Shown one piece after another: positions 10,371 through 34,622 of a stretch of 64,000 bases of DNA; position 1 is the stretch's first letter; the number at the start of each line of letters is the position of its first letter. Origin of the DNA: Bacteroidales bacterium (GTDB lineage: Bacteria; Bacteroidota; Bacteroidia; Bacteroidales; Salinivirgaceae); assembly GCA_012519055.1 (NCBI GenBank), contig JAAYQU010000016.1:1-64000 (forward strand), read 5' to 3'. Made by a program: the position numbers and the translations under genes. The notes beneath the pieces are model-generated. The model saw only the letters and a program-made list of their open reading frames with translations. It did not search any database and had not been told where the DNA came from.

Positions 10371-11426
10371 GTGAATAAAAACTCATTTAACCCACACGAT
10401 ACAGGAATAAAAAATGGAAACTATTTCGGTTTCCCCAATAATCCTGATTCTTGCGATGTCCTGCTAATAAGCGTTCCGTGGGACGTTACTGTCTCATACA
10501 GACATGGGACATCACTCGGTCCAGAGTCAATAATTGAAGCATCTGTACAGTTAGATTTCTTCGATTACGAGATTAAAAATGCTTGGGAAACATCAATTGC
10601 TTCACTGCCAATTAGCAATGAAATAAAAAAGCAAAACTCTGAACTTAGAAAGCTTGCAGAAGAGATAATCCAAAAATTGGAACTTGGAGAGCCTTTAGAC
10701 GAAAAACTAATTAATAATCAGAAGCATATAAACGCTCAATGCGCAAAGCTAAACCGCTCAATAAAAGATATTTGCTCCGCTCACTTATCCGACAATAAAC
10801 ATATTGGAATTGTAGGTGGCGACCACAGTGTTCCGTTAGGTTTGATTGAAGCTCTTTGCGAAAAACACGATAGCTTTGGAATACTACATATTGACGCTCA
10901 CGCCGATTTAAGAGATAGTTACGAGGGGTTTGAATTTTCTCACGCCTCAATTATGTTTAACGTATTGAAACATAAGAATATATCTAAACTCGTACAGGTT
11001 GCTATTCGTGATGTCTCTGCACCAGAGGTTCTCCTATCTGAAACTGATAAAAGAATTTCTGTTTTTTCAGACTACCATTTGAAAGAGGCTGAATACAACG
11101 GAAAAACATGGAACCAACAGTGTTTAGAGATTGTTGAACAACTGCCCGAAAAGGTCTATATCAGTTTCGATATTGACGGACTTACGCCCGACCTATGCCC
11201 AAACACAGGAACTCCCGTTCCCGGCGGATTGGATTTCAACAAAGTTATACACCTACTGCATGTTTTACACCGCAGTGGTAAAACTATTGTTGGATTCGAT
11301 TTGTGCGAAGTAGCCCCCGGCAAGGATAACGATTGGGATGCGAACGTTGGGACGAGGGTTTTATATAAACTTTGCCAGATATCAATTAACAATGAACAAT
11401 TACGAATTACGAATACGGTTAGCTGA
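10371..11426 (+). CDS. Arginase/agmatinase family (ureohydrolase) protein
   Basis: A 351-residue binuclear manganese hydrolase of the ureohydrolase fold. All metal-binding motifs are present: GGDHS (149-153), DAHAD (175-179) and SFDIDGL (265-271). The substrate cannot be read from the sequence; agmatine, arginine and formiminoglutamate are the family choices. It starts at a GTG. A middle insertion of about 50 residues (85-135) is longer than in SpeB-type agmatinases. The last ~12 residues (SINNEQLRITNTVS) are coded by an AACAATGAACAATTACGAATTACGAA intergenic repeat, so the natural stop was probably lost or overwritten and the tail is not ancestral. Confidence 0.85.
   Translation: MNKNSFNPHDTGIKNGNYFGFPNNPDSCDVLLISVPWDVTVSYRHGTSLGPESIIEASVQLDFFDYEIKNAWETSIASLPISNEIKKQNSELRKLAEEIIQKLELGEPLDEKLINNQKHINAQCAKLNRSIKDICSAHLSDNKHIGIVGGDHSVPLGLIEALCEKHDSFGILHIDAHADLRDSYEGFEFSHASIMFNVLKHKNISKLVQVAIRDVSAPEVLLSETDKRISVFSDYHLKEAEYNGKTWNQQCLEIVEQLPEKVYISFDIDGLTPDLCPNTGTPVPGGLDFNKVIHLLHVLHRSGKTIVGFDLCEVAPGKDNDWDANVGTRVLYKLCQISINNEQLRITNTVS
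11383..11416. repeat. AACAATGAACAATTACGAATTACGAA repeat inside a gene end
   Basis: This stretch joins a CAATGAACAAT unit to AATTACGAATTACGAA, the same low-complexity family found at 814-860 and 56010-56066. It lies inside the 3' end of the ureohydrolase gene and supplies its last codons. Confidence 0.6.
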
Positions 11427-12196: not shown

Positions 12197-13853
12197 AATC
12201 GGTTTTTAAAACATCTTTTCTGGTGATAAATACAAATCCGTTTTTCTCACCTATCACTTTTAAATTTGGATATTTGTTTAAATAATTTTCCACCCTATCA
12301 TTTTTCGACACAAAATATACATCTTTATCAACATGCCCATTTATCAGCCAATCTTTATTACTACTTTCTAAGCTTTCACTTTTAGGTTTTAACGTGTAAA
12401 AATAGTGTGCATAGCTTTTAAATCCAAGCGTTTCGACATATACATCAGCATCTTGCATTGATTTATAGAAATCAATTGCTGCTCGTTGTGTATATCCTTC
12501 AACTTTGGTAATCACGAATATAAGCGTAAGATTGATATATAAAAATGAGGATATAGCAATAGCTAACAAACCACGTTTAATATTTATTTTAATCGTTAAT
12601 AAATAATATAGCACCCCTATCAACAATACTAAACCGATAATAAATTCAAATCCCGTCCAATTAACATCTGCTTGCAAGTTGGCAACTGCAAAGACATCTT
12701 TTATTCTGCCCTTAACCAATAACCAAGGCTTAATATTATCAAAAACAGATATAAGAAACATTGGTATTGCAAAAATCAGGGCAACAAGGATAATCAAAAC
12801 ATTTGTCCACCATTTTACCCGGTGCTTTTTATTAACAATTTCATAAATGCTCCATGTTGCAAGATATGTGACAGGAAAATAAGCAAGCGATGAGTAGTGT
12901 AATATCTTGGTTTTTACTATGGTAAATAGAATCAAAACCGTAAACAATAGAATTATCATTACTTGACGAATATGTTTCTCGTAATCTGTTATTGATTTTG
13001 GCTTACGTAATCCCAACAAAGCAAAAATAGAGGCAGGGAAAACACCCAAAAAGACTACCACAAAATGGTATAATAAAAAGCCTCCATGTCCGGCATCCTG
13101 CGTTTTAAAAAGTCTGATTTGATACTCTATAAAATCAGCCATTACATGATAGTTTCCTGTTAATATCTGTAGGATAAACCAAAAGCCACCTGTAAAAGCT
13201 AAAACACCTATGAAGAGTAATATATCTTTAATTTTGAATTTAATTTCAAATTTCCTAATAATCAACAATATAGCCCCAACCAAAGCAAAGATTAAAATTG
13301 CGACAGGACCTTTTGTAAGAGTACCTAAACCAATAAACAGACCCGACAGGATTGCCTGACGTGTTCTTCTTCCCGTATAATCCTTATCTGCGTATTTCGT
13401 TGCATGATATATACCCAGGAAAATAAACAGATTGAACCACGGGTCAATTATTCCTGATTTGAAATAGAAAAATGGCAGAAACGAGCATGCATAACTTAAG
13501 ACCCAAATAATCCCAAAAGTTTTGTTTTTCATCTCTTTACCCATTCTGTAAAGGACTAATAGTGTAACAACACCGCATATTGCATTTGGGAAACGTGCTG
13601 CAAATTCATTTACACCAAATATCCACATTGATAGTGCCTGCATCCATATAAAGAGCGGAGGTTTTTCCCAAAACGGCTCGAAATTAATTTGGACTGTCAG
13701 AAAGTCGCCTGTTACCAACATCTCTCTGGCTGACTCTGCAAAATTAATTTCGTCCCAGTCAAACAGATTAACCTGACCTAAAAATAACGAAAATATAATT
13801 ATACCTAATACAGAGATAATTATATAGTTTTTGTCTTTAATTTTTAAACCCAA
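12183..13853 (-). CDS. ArnT-like family 39 glycosyltransferase (membrane)
   Basis: A 556-residue polytopic membrane protein with about 11-12 hydrophobic helices. The first periplasmic loop carries FDWDEINFAESAREML followed by EKPPLFIWMQALSMWIFG, the hallmark of GT39/ArnT enzymes, where the DE acids are catalytic. These enzymes move a sugar from a polyprenyl phosphate to lipid A, protein or other envelope acceptors. No ATG is available before the conserved loop; the TTG at 13851-13853 is the best start, although an ATT just upstream is possible. It overlaps the downstream GT2 gene by 14 bp. None of the other Arn genes is present here. Confidence 0.87.
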   Translation of the reverse strand: MGLKIKDKNYIIISVLGIIIFSLFLGQVNLFDWDEINFAESAREMLVTGDFLTVQINFEPFWEKPPLFIWMQALSMWIFGVNEFAARFPNAICGVVTLLVLYRMGKEMKNKTFGIIWVLSYACSFLPFFYFKSGIIDPWFNLFIFLGIYHATKYADKDYTGRRTRQAILSGLFIGLGTLTKGPVAILIFALVGAILLIIRKFEIKFKIKDILLFIGVLAFTGGFWFILQILTGNYHVMADFIEYQIRLFKTQDAGHGGFLLYHFVVVFLGVFPASIFALLGLRKPKSITDYEKHIRQVMIILLFTVLILFTIVKTKILHYSSLAYFPVTYLATWSIYEIVNKKHRVKWWTNVLIILVALIFAIPMFLISVFDNIKPWLLVKGRIKDVFAVANLQADVNWTGFEFIIGLVLLIGVLYYLLTIKINIKRGLLAIAISSFLYINLTLIFVITKVEGYTQRAAIDFYKSMQDADVYVETLGFKSYAHYFYTLKPKSESLESSNKDWLINGHVDKDVYFVSKNDRVENYLNKYPNLKVIGEKNGFVFITRKDVLKTDYDKE

Positions 13854-14153
13854 AATTGAAAATAGTTACTTAATAAAATTCCACAAAAATAGGCATTTAC
13901 GCTGTTTTGCAAAGGTAGATAAAAATCGTCGATTGAGGCTAAAAAAATTAATTTGATTTTTTCTTAATAAAACAAAATTTGATTGTTATATATAATATTA
14001 AATCATACATTTGTATTGTATTTTTATCGTTTAACACTCTTACCACATATATCTGGTACATAATCATTTGCATTTACGATTGTCGTAAAAAGAGTTTACA
14101 AAACAAGAGTGTTTAAATAGTAAAACTACAATAAAATAACTTTAAACTCATCT
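13854..14153. promoter_or_regulatory. Divergent intergenic region with promoters for both sides
   Basis: This 300-bp AT-rich gap holds no gene. On the minus strand TACCTTTG at 13910-13917 is a possible -7 box for the GT39/GT2 pair. On the plus strand TTG at 13983-13985 and TACATTTG at 14006-14013, separated by 20 bp, make a good Bacteroidota-type promoter for the ATP-grasp operon, implying a 5' leader of about 130 nt. I saw no riboswitch-like fold by eye. Confidence 0.45.
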
Positions 14154-15206
14154 ATGCAAATGTTTATTGGATTAACTTACGACTTAAAGTCATTATACCT
14201 GTCACAAGGTTACCTGCCGGACCAGGTTGCTGAATTTGATTCAGAGGAGACAATTTCAGCCATTGAAAACACACTAAACTTATTGGGACACAAAACCGAA
14301 CGCATTGGCAATATTCATGAACTTACAATAGCATTAGCAAAAAGGAAGCGCTGGGATTTAGTATTTAACATCGCAGAGGGCATGTTTGGTCGCGGACGTG
14401 AAGCACAAATTCCTGCTCTATTGGAAGCGTTCGAAATTCCATTTACCTTCTCCGATTCATTAACGATGGCACTTACACTTGAAAAATCTGCAACAAAAAG
14501 ATTTTTAAGAGATCAAGGTATTAGCACGGGAGCTTTCTGGGTAATCGATTCTATGGATGAGTTGAAGAAGCCTAATTTCAATTATCCGTTATTTGTTAAA
14601 CCTGTTGCAGAGGGCAGCGGTAAGGGCATCGATGAAGCGCCTATCGTGAATAATTTTCGTGAACTAAAAGCTGACGTTGAAAAATTGCTTACAATATATG
14701 GTCAGAGAGTGCTGATTGAGGAATACTTACCTGGTAGGGAATTTACTGTTGGTATTGTGGGTACAGGGAAAAACGCCAAAGTTATCGGTAATATCGAAAT
14801 TATTTTCACAGATCCAAAAAGTAACAAGATTTACAACCTTGAAACTAAAAACGATTATGAAAACAGGGTTATATACAAACCATGTTCGGGTCCTCTCTCA
14901 AAAGCCTTACACGAGCTTGCTTTAAAAACCTACCGACTACTAAACTGCCGCGATGCTGGACGAGTTGATATTAAACTTAATAAAGTTGGAGTTCCAACAT
15001 TTTTAGAAATCAATCCATTAGCAGGAATTAATCCCATACACAGCGATTTGCCAATACTATCAAGAATGAATGGACTTGACTATACAGAACTAATCAGGCT
15101 AATAATAGCATCGGCTTCGGAAAGAGTTGTAAATAATAAACATGTGTTGTTTGATTACTATTCTACTATCGGAAAATCAGTCAAAAATCGCAACACACAA
15201 AAATGA
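14154..15206 (+). CDS. D-Ala-D-Ala-ligase-like ATP-grasp enzyme 1
   Basis: A 350-residue ATP-grasp amide ligase with the D-alanine-D-alanine ligase layout. The N-terminal domain has FNIAEGMFGRGREAQIPALLE split around residues 72-92. The ATP-grasp core has FVKPVAEGSGKGI (lysine and glycine-rich loop) and LIEEYLPGREFTVGI. The metal-binding end is GRVDIKLN...FLEINPLAGINP. The start MQMF is not the usual Ddl start, and a second ATP-grasp gene overlaps its stop by ATGA. This suggests a dedicated small-peptide ligase rather than the cell-wall Ddl, whose normal place would be with mur genes. The substrate cannot be deduced. Confidence 0.85.
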   Translation: MQMFIGLTYDLKSLYLSQGYLPDQVAEFDSEETISAIENTLNLLGHKTERIGNIHELTIALAKRKRWDLVFNIAEGMFGRGREAQIPALLEAFEIPFTFSDSLTMALTLEKSATKRFLRDQGISTGAFWVIDSMDELKKPNFNYPLFVKPVAEGSGKGIDEAPIVNNFRELKADVEKLLTIYGQRVLIEEYLPGREFTVGIVGTGKNAKVIGNIEIIFTDPKSNKIYNLETKNDYENRVIYKPCSGPLSKALHELALKTYRLLNCRDAGRVDIKLNKVGVPTFLEINPLAGINPIHSDLPILSRMNGLDYTELIRLIIASASERVVNNKHVLFDYYSTIGKSVKNRNTQK

Positions 15207-16159
15207 AAATAGCAATTTTATATAACAAAGTCAGCGAAAATGCCGCCGATGATGAGAGTGATGTTTTAGATCAGGTTGAGTTAGTTGAAAATAATCTTAT
15301 AAAACTTGGACACACAGTTAAGCATATACAGATAACTTTGGATATGCAAAGCACTAAAAATGAACTTATTGACGGAGATTACGATGCTGTTTTTAATCTT
15401 GCTGAAAGTATTGACAATCACGGAGAGTTAATCACTTTTGGACCTGCATTAGTTGATGTCCTAAAAATTCCATATTCAGGCTCATCTTATGAAGCGATAT
15501 TTTTGACGACCAATAAGCCTGTAACAAAAATTCTGTTAGAACATAGCAGTATTCTTACGCCTCAGACAATTTCACCTCAGAATATCAACGCAATAGATAT
15601 AAATAAAAGATATATAATAAAGCCTATCTGGGAAGATGGCTCGCTGTTTCTTGACGAGGATTGCGTTGTGTATGGCAAAGAACTGATTGATAGAATAATA
15701 GATATTGATTTCAGATACTTTTTTGTGGAACAATATATTGACGGGAGAGAGTTCAATATCAGCATATTAGCACAGTTGTCTAAAGAGCCACAAGTGCTAA
15801 AACCTGCTGAAATTGTTTTTAAAAATTATTCTGGCGATAAACCGAAAATTGTTGGATACTCAGCAAAGTGGGCGGAAGAGAGTTTTGAATACAAAAACAC
15901 GGTTAGAGAGTTCCCTTCTATTGGCCAAACCCTTCATGATAAGCTAAATAAAGTTTGTACAGACTGTTGGAAACTGTTTAAACTTAAGGGTTATGCTCGT
16001 GTTGACATTCGCTTAGACGAGCACGAAAACCCTTATGTTCTTGAGATTAACGCAAACCCCTGCATAAGCCCCGACAGTGGCTTTGTGGCTGCATTAAAAG
16101 AGAGTGGAATTACAGAAACAGAGGCTATTGAACGGATAATTAATGATTTGAATAACTAA
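15203..16159 (+). CDS. D-Ala-D-Ala-ligase-like ATP-grasp enzyme 2
   Basis: A 318-residue second ATP-grasp ligase, translationally coupled to the first by a 4-bp ATGA overlap. It shares VFNLAESIDNHGE in the N-terminal domain, EQYIDGREFNISIL in the core and ARVDIRLDEHENPYVLEINANPCISP at the metal site when read in pieces near 255-280. The central loop (KPIWEDGSLFLDED) is divergent from the partner, so the two probably accept different substrates. Two consecutive ligases followed by an acetyltransferase suggest stepwise synthesis and capping of a small peptide-like compound. That is inference from gene order only. Confidence 0.83.
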   Translation: MKIAILYNKVSENAADDESDVLDQVELVENNLIKLGHTVKHIQITLDMQSTKNELIDGDYDAVFNLAESIDNHGELITFGPALVDVLKIPYSGSSYEAIFLTTNKPVTKILLEHSSILTPQTISPQNINAIDINKRYIIKPIWEDGSLFLDEDCVVYGKELIDRIIDIDFRYFFVEQYIDGREFNISILAQLSKEPQVLKPAEIVFKNYSGDKPKIVGYSAKWAEESFEYKNTVREFPSIGQTLHDKLNKVCTDCWKLFKLKGYARVDIRLDEHENPYVLEINANPCISPDSGFVAALKESGITETEAIERIINDLNN

Positions 16160-16184
16160 AACTAACGTAAGTCATTGTAACAAC

Positions 16185-16670
16185 ATGGATATCAGCAATA
16201 TAAAACTACGCACAAATATCAATAAAGAAGATCTTATCACATTACCAGAAATAACTAAGCTAAGTGAATACTTTTACGATGAAGAGGTTGAAATTGTTGA
16301 AGAAATTGCAAATGAAACATATAACAACCCAATATGTGGGTATTTATGGGTAATTGCCGAAGTTGACAATAAAACTGTTGGATTTGCAACATACGGCAAA
16401 GTTCCAGGCTCATTCCATTCTTGGGATTTATATTGGATAGTAACTGGTAAATCGCTTAAAGGGTGCGGTATTGGTAAAAAAATTTTAAATTTTGTTGAGT
16501 CTGAAGTGGTAAAAAACAGTGGGAAATTACTAATTGCCGAAACCAGCGGAAGGGAGTTATATTACGATACTCGAGCATTTTATATTGCATGCGGATATAT
16601 GTTAGAAGCTGTTATTAAAGAGTTTTACGGTCCGTCTGATGACAAAATGTTTTATGTGAAAAGGTTTTAA
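16185..16670 (+). CDS. GNAT family N-acetyltransferase
   Basis: A 161-residue single-domain GNAT enzyme. The acetyl-CoA pyrophosphate loop is SLKGCGIGKKIL near residue 90 and the C-terminal part FYIACGYMLEAVIKEFY matches motif B. It lies 25 bp after the second ATP-grasp gene on the same strand, so it is likely the third gene of that operon. It may acetylate the amino group of the ligase product or provide self-resistance. The 150-bp stretch after it, before the convergent uvrB stop, holds nothing I can support. Confidence 0.83.
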   Translation: MDISNIKLRTNINKEDLITLPEITKLSEYFYDEEVEIVEEIANETYNNPICGYLWVIAEVDNKTVGFATYGKVPGSFHSWDLYWIVTGKSLKGCGIGKKILNFVESEVVKNSGKLLIAETSGRELYYDTRAFYIACGYMLEAVIKEFYGPSDDKMFYVKRF

Positions 16671-32456: not shown

Positions 32457-34622
32457 ATGAACGAAGAAAACAAAAACCTAAACGAGGCTTTAACACCCTC
32501 AAATGATTTTGACTGGGAAGCATACGCTTCCGATATGGTTGTCGATGAAACTACCAACCGTGAAGAGTTAGAAAAAATATACGACAACACAATGTCGTCT
32601 ATTGCCGAAAATGAAGTAACCGATGGAGTTGTTGTAGGAATGAACAAACGTGAAGTTCTTATCAACATTGGCTACAAATCAGAAGGAGTTATAAGTATAT
32701 CAGAATTTCGCTACAATCCTGATCTAAAAGTAGGTGACACAGTAGAGGTATTTGTGGAAAGCCAGGAAGATAAAAATGGTCAATTGGTTTTATCACACAG
32801 AAAAGCAAGAGCGTTAAGATCGTGGGATCGAGTTAATGAGGCTCTTGAAAAAGACGAAATTGTTAAAGGTTACATAAAATGCCGTACAAAAGGCGGTATG
32901 ATTGTGGATGTATTCGGAATTGAGGCGTTTTTGCCTGGTTCACAAATTGATGTCAAACCCATTCGCGATTACGATGTGTTTGTTAACAAAACAATGGAGT
33001 TTAAGATTGTTAAAATCAATCAAGAATATAAAAACGTTGTTGTTTCACATAAAGCTCTTATTGAAGCTGAACTTGAACAACAAAAGAAAGAAATTATTGC
33101 CAAGCTTGAAAAAGGTCAAGTACTTGAAGGAACTGTTAAAAACATTACTTCATACGGAGTATTCATCGACTTGGGCGGCGTTGACGGTTTAATTCACATT
33201 ACCGACCTTTCATGGGGACGTATATCACATCCTGATGAAATAGTAAAATTAGATGAAAAAATTAATGTTGTTATTCTTGACTTTGACGATGAGAAAAAAC
33301 GTATAGCACTTGGCTTAAAACAACTTACACCACATCCATGGGAATCTTTAGACAAAGAACTAAAAGTTGGTGATAAAATTAATGGTAAAGTTGTTGTTTT
33401 AGCCGATTACGGTGCATTTGTTGAAATAGCTCCCGGAGTTGAAGGATTAATCCACGTTTCAGAAATGTCGTGGTCGCAACATTTGCGCAGTGCTCAAGAA
33501 TTTATGAAAGTTGGCGACGAGGTAGAAGCTGTTATTTTAGCATTAGACCCAGAGGATAGAAAAATGAGTCTTGGTATCAAACAGTTAAAACCAGATCCAT
33601 GGACAGATATTGAAACAAAATATGCTGTTAACTCAAGACATAAAGCAATTGTTCGAAACTTCACAAGTTTTGGTGTATTTGTAGAAATTGAAGAGGGTGT
33701 CGACGGTCTTATACATATTTCCGACCTATTATGGACGAAAAAAATTAAACATCCAGCTGAATTTACAAGTATTGGCTCGGAAATTGAAGTTATGGTATTA
33801 GAAATTGATACTGCAAACCGTCGCTTAAGTTTAGGTCACAAACAACTGGAAGAGAACCCATGGGAAGTTTTTGCAGAAATTTTTGCTGCCGACACAATTC
33901 ACGAGGGTATAGTTATTGAAATCAACGAAAAAGGTGCAGTTATTGCATTACCATACGGTGTAGAAGGATTTGCAACTCCTAAACATATGGTAAAAGAGAA
34001 CGGAAGCCCTGCAAAAATCGATGAAAAATTAGAGTTTAAAGTTATCGAATTTAACAAAGATGCTAAACGAATAATTGTTTCTCACAGCCGTACTTTTGAA
34101 GATTTAGCAAAAGTCGAACAAGAAACAAAACGCGAAGCAACTAAAAAAGCCTCTAAAAAACTGAAAGAAAGTATCGAAAAAACAACTTTAGGAGATATTG
34201 CAGAGTTAGCACAGTTAAAAGATGATATGCTAAATAAAGACGCAAAAAAGAAATCCGTTAAAAAAGAACCTAAAGCTGAAGAATCTGAGAAAAAAGAGAC
34301 TGAAGTTAAAGAATCTAAAAAGAAAGAACCTGAAGCTAAAGATGTAGAAAAAAAAGAATCCAAAGCTAAAAAAACTGAGGTAAAAGAGGCTGAGGTTAAA
34401 GAGCCTAAAAAGAAAGAACCTGAAGCTAAAGATGCAGAAAAAAAAGAATCTAAAGCTAAAAAAACTGAGGTAAAAGAGGCTGAGGTTAAAGAGTCTAAAA
34501 AGAAAGAGCCAGAAGCTAAAGATGCAGAAAAAAAAGAATCCAAAGCTAAAAAAACTGAGGTAAAAAAATCTGAAGTTAAAGAATCTGAAAATAAAGACTC
34601 TGAAGAAAAAAAATCAGAATAA
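32457..34622 (+). CDS. rpsA: 30S ribosomal protein S1 with repetitive Lys/Glu tail
   Basis: A 721-residue S1 with six S1/OB-fold repeats between about residues 50 and 545. Repeats 3-5 are the most regular (e.g. GTVKNITSYGVFIDLGGVDG, RNFTSFGVFVEIEEGVDG). S1 binds mRNA at the ribosome and, in a phylum that rarely uses Shine-Dalgarno pairing, is expected to matter for initiation. The protein is much longer than Escherichia coli S1 (557 aa) because of a tail of about 170 residues rich in Lys, Glu and Ala, containing three near-identical 30-residue units. The tail is probably disordered or helical and has no known role. Confidence 0.95.
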   Translation: MNEENKNLNEALTPSNDFDWEAYASDMVVDETTNREELEKIYDNTMSSIAENEVTDGVVVGMNKREVLINIGYKSEGVISISEFRYNPDLKVGDTVEVFVESQEDKNGQLVLSHRKARALRSWDRVNEALEKDEIVKGYIKCRTKGGMIVDVFGIEAFLPGSQIDVKPIRDYDVFVNKTMEFKIVKINQEYKNVVVSHKALIEAELEQQKKEIIAKLEKGQVLEGTVKNITSYGVFIDLGGVDGLIHITDLSWGRISHPDEIVKLDEKINVVILDFDDEKKRIALGLKQLTPHPWESLDKELKVGDKINGKVVVLADYGAFVEIAPGVEGLIHVSEMSWSQHLRSAQEFMKVGDEVEAVILALDPEDRKMSLGIKQLKPDPWTDIETKYAVNSRHKAIVRNFTSFGVFVEIEEGVDGLIHISDLLWTKKIKHPAEFTSIGSEIEVMVLEIDTANRRLSLGHKQLEENPWEVFAEIFAADTIHEGIVIEINEKGAVIALPYGVEGFATPKHMVKENGSPAKIDEKLEFKVIEFNKDAKRIIVSHSRTFEDLAKVEQETKREATKKASKKLKESIEKTTLGDIAELAQLKDDMLNKDAKKKSVKKEPKAEESEKKETEVKESKKKEPEAKDVEKKESKAKKTEVKEAEVKEPKKKEPEAKDAEKKESKAKKTEVKEAEVKESKKKEPEAKDAEKKESKAKKTEVKKSEVKESENKDSEEKKSE
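34304..34575 (+). repeat. 90-bp in-frame tandem repeat in rpsA
   Basis: AAAACTGAGG recurs at 34371, 34461 and 34551, giving a 90-bp period (30 codons). Units share KKKEPEAKDAEKKESKAK. Copies differ at only a few third positions or single codons (e.g. GATGTA/GATGCA, CCT/TCT), so they were duplicated recently or are being homogenised. Confidence 0.85.

Follow-up and report, generated by a model that had tools for sequence, protein, structure and literature searches.

Gene organization of the locus

The window analysed here is a 64,000-nt stretch of the forward strand of a Bacteroidales bacterium (Salinivirgaceae; assembly GCA_012519055.1, contig JAAYQU010000016.1, positions 1–64,000), and it contains three consecutive plus-strand genes, designated A, B and C, which encode two related ATP-grasp ligases of the Ddl (D-Ala-D-Ala ligase) fold and a GNAT acetyltransferase. 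Gene A (14154–15206; 350 amino acids, aa) matched PF07478 at 103.8 bits (cut-off 24), B (15203–16159; 318 aa), a second and more diverged ligase, matched the same family at 61.7 bits (cut-off 24), and C (16185–16670; 161 aa) matched Pfam Acetyltransf_7 at 33.1 bits (cut-off 27). A sequence-only reading of the window had reported that A and B overlap by ATGA and that the GNAT gene follows 25 bp later; both were confirmed, with a stop/start overlap of four shared bases at 15203–15206 (plus strand) and C beginning at 16185, and the overlap likely couples the translation of A and B. Because their homologues stand side by side in other genomes, A, B and C are, by sequence comparison, genes rather than chance open reading frames (ORFs). 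Many homologues begin at a position matching the ATG at 14160, which may therefore be the true start of A.

Conservation of the gene unit

Gene content was compared at 21 A-centred loci, 13 from named contigs (by title KSB1, Desulfobacterota, Spirochaetes, Planctomycetes and others) and 8 from related genomes; A is present in all of them by construction. B stands beside A at 19 of the 21 loci and C occurs at 15, so the check for which the sequence-only reading had asked, on conservation of the triple as a unit, came out firmly for the A-B pair and as the usual arrangement for the GNAT gene. A gene of the KamA family, designated K, accompanies them at 17 loci. K encodes a radical SAM enzyme: the five K proteins scanned carried LAM_C and Radical_SAM by Pfam, and the best NCBIfam match of four K proteins was lysine 2,3-aminomutase. 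Contig ends truncate several of these loci. The sequence of L032 begins with A, those of L027, L037 and L044 stop within B or close to it, K is missing from L038, and the gene order in L035 is K-C-A-B. Among ten further loci from a phylum search, six show A-B-C-K in the ORF list, L117 has A-B-C in that list and a KamA gene where K would be expected, located by profile-match coordinates because the list had kept the opposite strand there, L112 has K-A-B-HDAC-C, L111 has K-A only, and L120 has A alone. The A-B-C(-K) module is almost certainly real.

Between B and C, L025, L031 and L112 encode a fusion of an HDAC domain with a second GNAT; genome G002 also carries the fusion, and so does G031, where it lies outside the module. 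In L025, the HDAC domain is closest to acetylpolyamine amidohydrolases, which fits an acetylated aliphatic amine. The closest solved relative of C by sequence is PDB 2r7h (96 bits against window C and 186 bits against the C profile), deposited as ‘putative D-alanine N-acetyltransferase’, a name perhaps drawn from its gene neighbours. The C alignment was built without L035, and the K alignment without L035, L037 and L117.

Co-occurrence was assessed in a sample of 395 Bacteroidota genomes, where A was called by profile A4 at a score of at least 300 bits, a threshold set once a gap in the scores, from 311 down to 266 bits, had become apparent. A was present in 69 genomes, B (profile A1) in 69, and both in 68. 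A KamA-family gene over the cut-off occurred in 67 of the 69 A-bearing genomes versus 61 of the 326 without A, and the corresponding counts among 60 relatives were 9 of 9 and 11 of 51. The distance between A and B was <300 bp in 55 of the 68 genomes, and that between A and K was <5 kb in 54 of 67; in the remaining 13, including the window genome, A and K lie apart in the assembly. Some of these separations are perhaps due to contig breaks (G259 and G310 have a truncated A), but A and K of G196 lie 430 kb apart on one contig, so no break separates them there. In a second group of 34 genomes the best profile A4 score was 209–253 bits, and KamA was present in all 34.

Comparison of A and B with cell-wall ligases

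AlphaFold2 models of A (alignment of 31 homologue rows, pLDDT 88.8) and B (26 homologue rows, pLDDT 93.3) both had Ddl structures as their top Foldseek matches in the PDB. With E. coli DdlB as the reference for numbering, A and B of the window retain the equivalents of Lys97, Lys144, Glu187, Lys215, Arg255, Asp257, Glu270 and Asn272, and the family rows covering these eight ATP/Mg positions retain them likewise; both the predicted fold and the ATP/Mg residues thus place A and B in the Ddl-fold ATP-grasp superfamily.

The D-Ala pocket is altered, taking it to comprise Glu15, His63, Ser150, Tyr216, Ser281 and Leu282 (the roles of all Ddl residues named here are those we presume). The equivalent of His63 is Glu in the A and B families (Asp in one row), that of Tyr216 is absent from both (gap or Trp; Trp in window B), that of Leu282 is Asp, Ser or Cys in the A family and Gly in the B family, and that of Glu15 is conserved in neither. 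Position 150 is Ser or Thr in the A family and Ala or Gly in the B family, while the Ser281 equivalent is retained in the A rows covering it and is Ser or Ala in B; the counterpart of the DdlB HSL is HSD in window A and DSG in window B. An acidic motif before helix 1 (AEFD in A, DExDVL in B) may substitute for Glu15; the profile alignment of A with Ddl starts only after this region.

Among the matches listed (25 of 41 families for A and 21 of 21 for B), the best curated NCBIfam Ddl model scored 152.2 bits for A and 92.0 for B, below the cut-off of 243, and the Van models scored 49–100 bits for A and at most 26 for B, below cut-offs of 495–775. Neither VanH nor VanX was found among the window neighbours of A-B-C. 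Four PF07478 matches were present in the window genome, the strongest on contig C19 (G000:C19; 168 bits) and the fourth on C10 (35.9 bits). The C19 protein retains the equivalents of Glu15, His63, Ser150, Tyr216 and Ser281, with Ile for Leu282, and its gene is, judged by these residues, the canonical ddl of the genome, on a contig other than that of the window. The residue comparison and the cut-offs agree that neither A nor B looks like a cell-wall Ddl, as the sequence-only reading had proposed when it placed the true ddl elsewhere in the genome; the converse case, with one of the pair fully Ddl-like and no other ddl, does not hold. A second Ddl or Van role for A or B was rejected on these scores and on the changed pocket residues.

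In a tree in which Ddl was represented by four rows only, the B rows grouped together (96/99), as did the Ddl rows (100/99); A needed two changes, because no supported branch joined its 8 rows of the A-B-C-K kind to its 23 other rows. The residue table was compiled without three long Ddl-like proteins, the low-scoring B row L044, the A proteins of L029, L030 and L037 and the B protein of L037; L116_4 was reassigned from A to B, two of six extra Ddl loci were included, and L112 and L027, which are truncated, are blank at some positions. The B alignment was built without L027 and L044, and the A alignment without L112.

Ddl-like proteins of 715–716 aa in G003, G005 and G404 and of 633 aa in G015 were set aside as different; two of the three long proteins included in the tree grouped weakly with Ddl, and that of G015 formed a long branch. 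Proteins of about 715 aa (L148:3406–6563 and L046:5338–8066) combine a Ddl-like ligase at the N-terminus with a C-terminal part that matched no family; the neighbouring gene belongs to the HDAC family in L148 and to the class I glutamine amidotransferases in L046.

The aminomutase and the likely substrate

The cluster cysteines, the pyridoxal phosphate lysine and two aspartates, whose roles we assume, were invariant in all 25 aligned KamA proteins, which included two fermentative ones, and the two aspartates align with those near the lysine side chain in 2A5H. AblB (TIGR03827) was found in none of the 19 A-bearing genomes searched, the window genome included, but lay near K in two of the three K-only loci opened (24 other K-only genomes were not opened); for this reason, A-bearing genomes probably route beta-lysine to A-B-C rather than to AblB. 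The substrate of the module is fairly likely to be beta-lysine or a near relative. At the third K-only locus, the KamA gene (L158:3993–5270) lies between genes that we take to encode a nonribosomal peptide synthetase (NRPS) and an amidinotransferase, a context that suggests a beta-amino-acid natural product.

The stretch before A that holds K in many relatives (13854–14153, plus strand) contains no recognisable K or HDAC remnant in the window, and these 300 bp, which reach as far as the divergent gene, contain no ORF of 80 aa. No K or K remnant was detected in 13001–14400 (best E 0.9 in 1.4 kb), so a remnant upstream of A was rejected, and no K match was found anywhere in the window, meaning that the operonic K is absent here. 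The window genome contains one KamA over the cut-off, on contig C37 (629.7 bits versus the AblA cut-off of 525.4), and this gene reads as part of a lysine-fermentation cluster, which presumably includes a lysine 5,6-aminomutase pair along with other genes of fermentation.

In the K tree, 16 of the 17 operonic rows of the K-A-B-C kind formed a clade (99/99), with L111 outside it, six A-B-C-K rows formed a separate clade (100/99), and the KamA proteins of the window genome and of G002 fell in a third clade with KamA of other relatives (99/99). Besides this fermentation-type KamA, G002 carries a K-like ORF (L122:1612–2028) that spans 138 codons, lacks the radical SAM core and is followed by an HDAC-GNAT gene running into the contig end; another of its contigs opens with the tail of an HDAC-GNAT-type gene followed by A-B-C, and the two contigs presumably join at that gene. 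G001 has the operonic K only. The simplest account, which is suggestive only, is that the fermentative KamA made the operonic K dispensable.

Proposed pathway

We propose that A-B-C perform the ligation and acetylation steps of a four-step beta-lysine peptide pathway, a reading to which we assign a probability of roughly one half. The computation gives a gene unit, a predicted fold, catalytic residues that are kept, a Ddl pocket that is lost, an association with K, and no AblB in the genomes searched; the substrates, step order, product and role described below are inferred, the steps from the enzyme classes. In the first step, a lysine 2,3-aminomutase would convert L-lysine to beta-lysine, this enzyme being K in most relatives and most likely the fermentation-type KamA from the other contig in the window genome. 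A would then use ATP to activate a carboxylate as an acyl phosphate and form an amide bond with beta-lysine as one partner, B would attach a second residue to give a di- or tripeptide, and C would acetylate a free amine. Some relatives may use the deacetylase-like domain, which is fused there to another GNAT, to tune or undo this acetylation. The product would be an N-acetylated beta-lysine peptide and is probably a small molecule of the cytoplasm, for example a compatible solute. The chances of an acetylated peptide product seem evenly balanced; a compatible-solute role is doubtful, because no riboswitch reached the gathering score at the 14 loci searched and no salt-linked neighbour was established. 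The module combines known enzyme classes toward a probably new product.

Small-peptide synthesis, as suggested by the sequence-only reading, stands as the likeliest role, although that reading missed the aminomutase partner because K is absent from the window; the presence of K in the units of most relatives suggests the building block of the peptide.

Several observations weigh against the beta-lysine pathway. A stands alone in L030 and L033 (two of the 21 loci), L045 lacks C, G421 carries A without B (G215 is a lone-ligase genome of the other kind, with B and no A), and KamA is missing from two A-bearing genomes, G106 and G397. Eight of the nine module K proteins scored with the NCBIfam AblA model TIGR03820 fell below its cut-off of 525.4, at 448–509 bits, and only that of L111 exceeded it (558.7), so the operonic K may act on a relative of lysine; of the two K proteins scored from the looser A’-K pairs described below, that of L143 matched arginine 2,3-aminomutase best and the other matched the lysine and arginine enzymes about equally. 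The Fisher p values for co-occurrence (1.5e-74 for A-B and 4.8e-37 for A-K) ignore relatedness and therefore overstate the evidence, and the pattern of K replacement comes from three congeners only. No Rfam riboswitch reached the gathering score at the 14 loci searched (L039 and L042 were not among them), and none of the neighbours of the module was established as salt-linked.

Alternative explanations

The beta-amino-acid peptide could instead be secreted and serve as an antibiotic, siderophore or signal, and not as a solute or other primary metabolite. Beta-lysine is found in antibiotics, and the K-only locus L158 lies among genes read as NRPS; against this, the module is short and common (A in 69 of 395 genomes), no plasmid record matched A at E 1e-30, and no recurrent exporter or resistance gene was seen in the ORF lists, most neighbours not having been family-scanned. 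We regard a secreted product as unlikely. At L026, a CitMHS-type transporter gene lies directly downstream. Plasmid mobility of the module was rejected on the same plasmid comparison.

A rather unlikely alternative is that the link to K is incidental and that A-B-C use another amino acid, as the solitary A of L030 and L033 and the occurrence of A and B without KamA in G106 and G397 might suggest. However, KamA occurs in 67 of the 69 A-bearing genomes, among them genomes in which it is not adjacent, and the K rows of the two gene orders form two separate clades; moreover, G397 is only 81% complete, and the adjacent B of G106 is cut to a 279-aa open frame, perhaps at a contig end.

It is quite improbable that the module tags a protein or polymer with beta-lysine, as EpmA and EpmB do on EF-P, with the ATP-grasp ligases replacing the LysRS-like enzyme. 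K is related to EpmB (TIGR03821 gave 251–260 bits for four K proteins, below the cut-off of 369), and ATP-grasp enzymes can modify proteins; nevertheless, two related ligases and a GNAT, with a deacetylase-like domain in some cases, suit a free small molecule better, the nearest solved relatives of A and B are small-molecule ligases, and next to the module no gene for an acceptor protein was recognised, although no systematic search for one was made.

Least probable is that A and B form a second Ddl/Van-type pair making a D-amino-acid dipeptide for the cell wall while C acts on D-alanine, since the predicted fold with Ddl and VanA as nearest solved relatives, the name of 2r7h and the Ser281 retained in A are set against scores far below all listed Ddl/Van cut-offs, the altered His63, Tyr216 and Leu282 equivalents and unconserved Glu15, the canonical ddl of the window genome, and a recurring partner gene that is an aminomutase.

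Comparison with known systems

A and B share the predicted fold, the ATP-grasp chemistry and the Mg and ATP residues of the Ddl/Van ligases, but they differ in their changed pocket, their pairing, their link to an aminomutase and their scores below every listed Ddl/Van cut-off. The AblA/AblB pathway to N-epsilon-acetyl-beta-lysine likewise combines lysine 2,3-aminomutase with a GNAT acetyltransferase, from which a beta-lysine-derived acetylated product would be expected here; unlike that pathway, the module adds two ATP-grasp ligases, its C comes from a different, shorter GNAT family, AblB was found in none of the 19 A-bearing genomes searched, and the AblA cut-off was missed by eight of the nine module K proteins scored.

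The synthesis of N-acetylglutaminylglutamine amide follows the same logic, with an ATP-grasp enzyme and a GNAT yielding an acetylated dipeptide osmolyte, but it uses an amidotransferase where the module has an aminomutase, and the module has separate genes and two Ddl-fold ligases. Carnosine synthase, which joins a beta-amino acid, and the L-amino acid ligases are also ATP-grasp dipeptide makers, although each system has one ligase and no acetylation; the only PDB entry of this type matched by A was one L-amino acid ligase, at 23.9 bits. PDB 2r7h belongs to the C family by profile score, but its depositors’ name points to D-alanine, whereas the evidence here favours a beta-lysine product.

An aminomutase–ATP-grasp–ATP-grasp–GNAT operon is not named in the titles and abstract openings of the literature matches listed; the 2009 amidoligase survey by Iyer and colleagues, which would be the likeliest to mention such an operon, lies outside that scope, and priority is unsettled.

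Genomic surroundings and related genes

The upstream neighbour of A is a divergent gene for a PMT_2 glycosyltransferase (Pfam), and the convergent gene downstream of C is one that we take to be uvrB. Other window neighbours identified by Pfam include GT2 glycosyltransferases, TruA and an arginase-family gene. The last of these (10371–11426, GTG start) scored 160.5 with the agmatinase model (cut-off 174.3) and 86.8 with the arginase model (cut-off 227.6). The ORF at 32457–34622 presumably encodes ribosomal protein S1 and has a long, charged, repetitive tail.

The sequence-only reading had placed the three genes behind their own promoter, and this part was not borne out. Sigma-70-like sites numbered 13 in the window versus 14.0 expected in shuffles, which is not above chance. 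A match to the Bacteroidetes-type promoter consensus as we presume it, TTTG-N24-TACATTTG, lies before A at 13978–14013, but this pattern had 11 matches in the window versus 6.7 expected, which was also taken as not above chance, and a dedicated promoter for A-B-C was rejected. Riboswitch control of the module was likewise rejected on the Rfam result at the 14 loci, and Rfam gave only two weak eukaryote-type matches in the window. Overall, that reading stands for the non-Ddl ligases, the conserved unit and the peptide role.

Looser relatives of A (211–243 bits) adjoin a KamA-family gene in L142–L147 (G062, G313, G301, G144, G254 and G194), as seen from ORFs in L143, L144 and L147 and from profile-match coordinates in the others; in L143 and L144, where the ORF calls are clean, neither B nor a GNAT was recognised beside the looser A. 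A second B-like ligase is encoded elsewhere in A-B-C-K genomes (L153:3733–4809 and L154:3190–4251), and at both loci opened it adjoins a C39-like peptidase gene (22.0 and 26.7 bits, cut-off 22), with an isochorismatase-family gene beside the latter (scanned in L153, similar by eye in L154).

Implications

The proposal would bring together two genes whose best family models are D-Ala-D-Ala ligases and a structure deposited under the name of a D-alanine acetyltransferase, as steps in a single pathway that can be tested and has a named building block. The likely misannotation of A and B would affect counts of ddl or van-like genes. With approximately one in six of the sampled Bacteroidota genomes carrying A, a common metabolite may have been overlooked. 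More tentatively, a widespread, uncharacterised pathway may make N-acetylated beta-lysine oligopeptides as major metabolites, forming a third branch of beta-lysine metabolism besides fermentation and acetylation by AblB; in the genus of the window, the first step may have passed to the catabolic aminomutase, so that one pool of beta-lysine would feed both lysine fermentation and solute synthesis.

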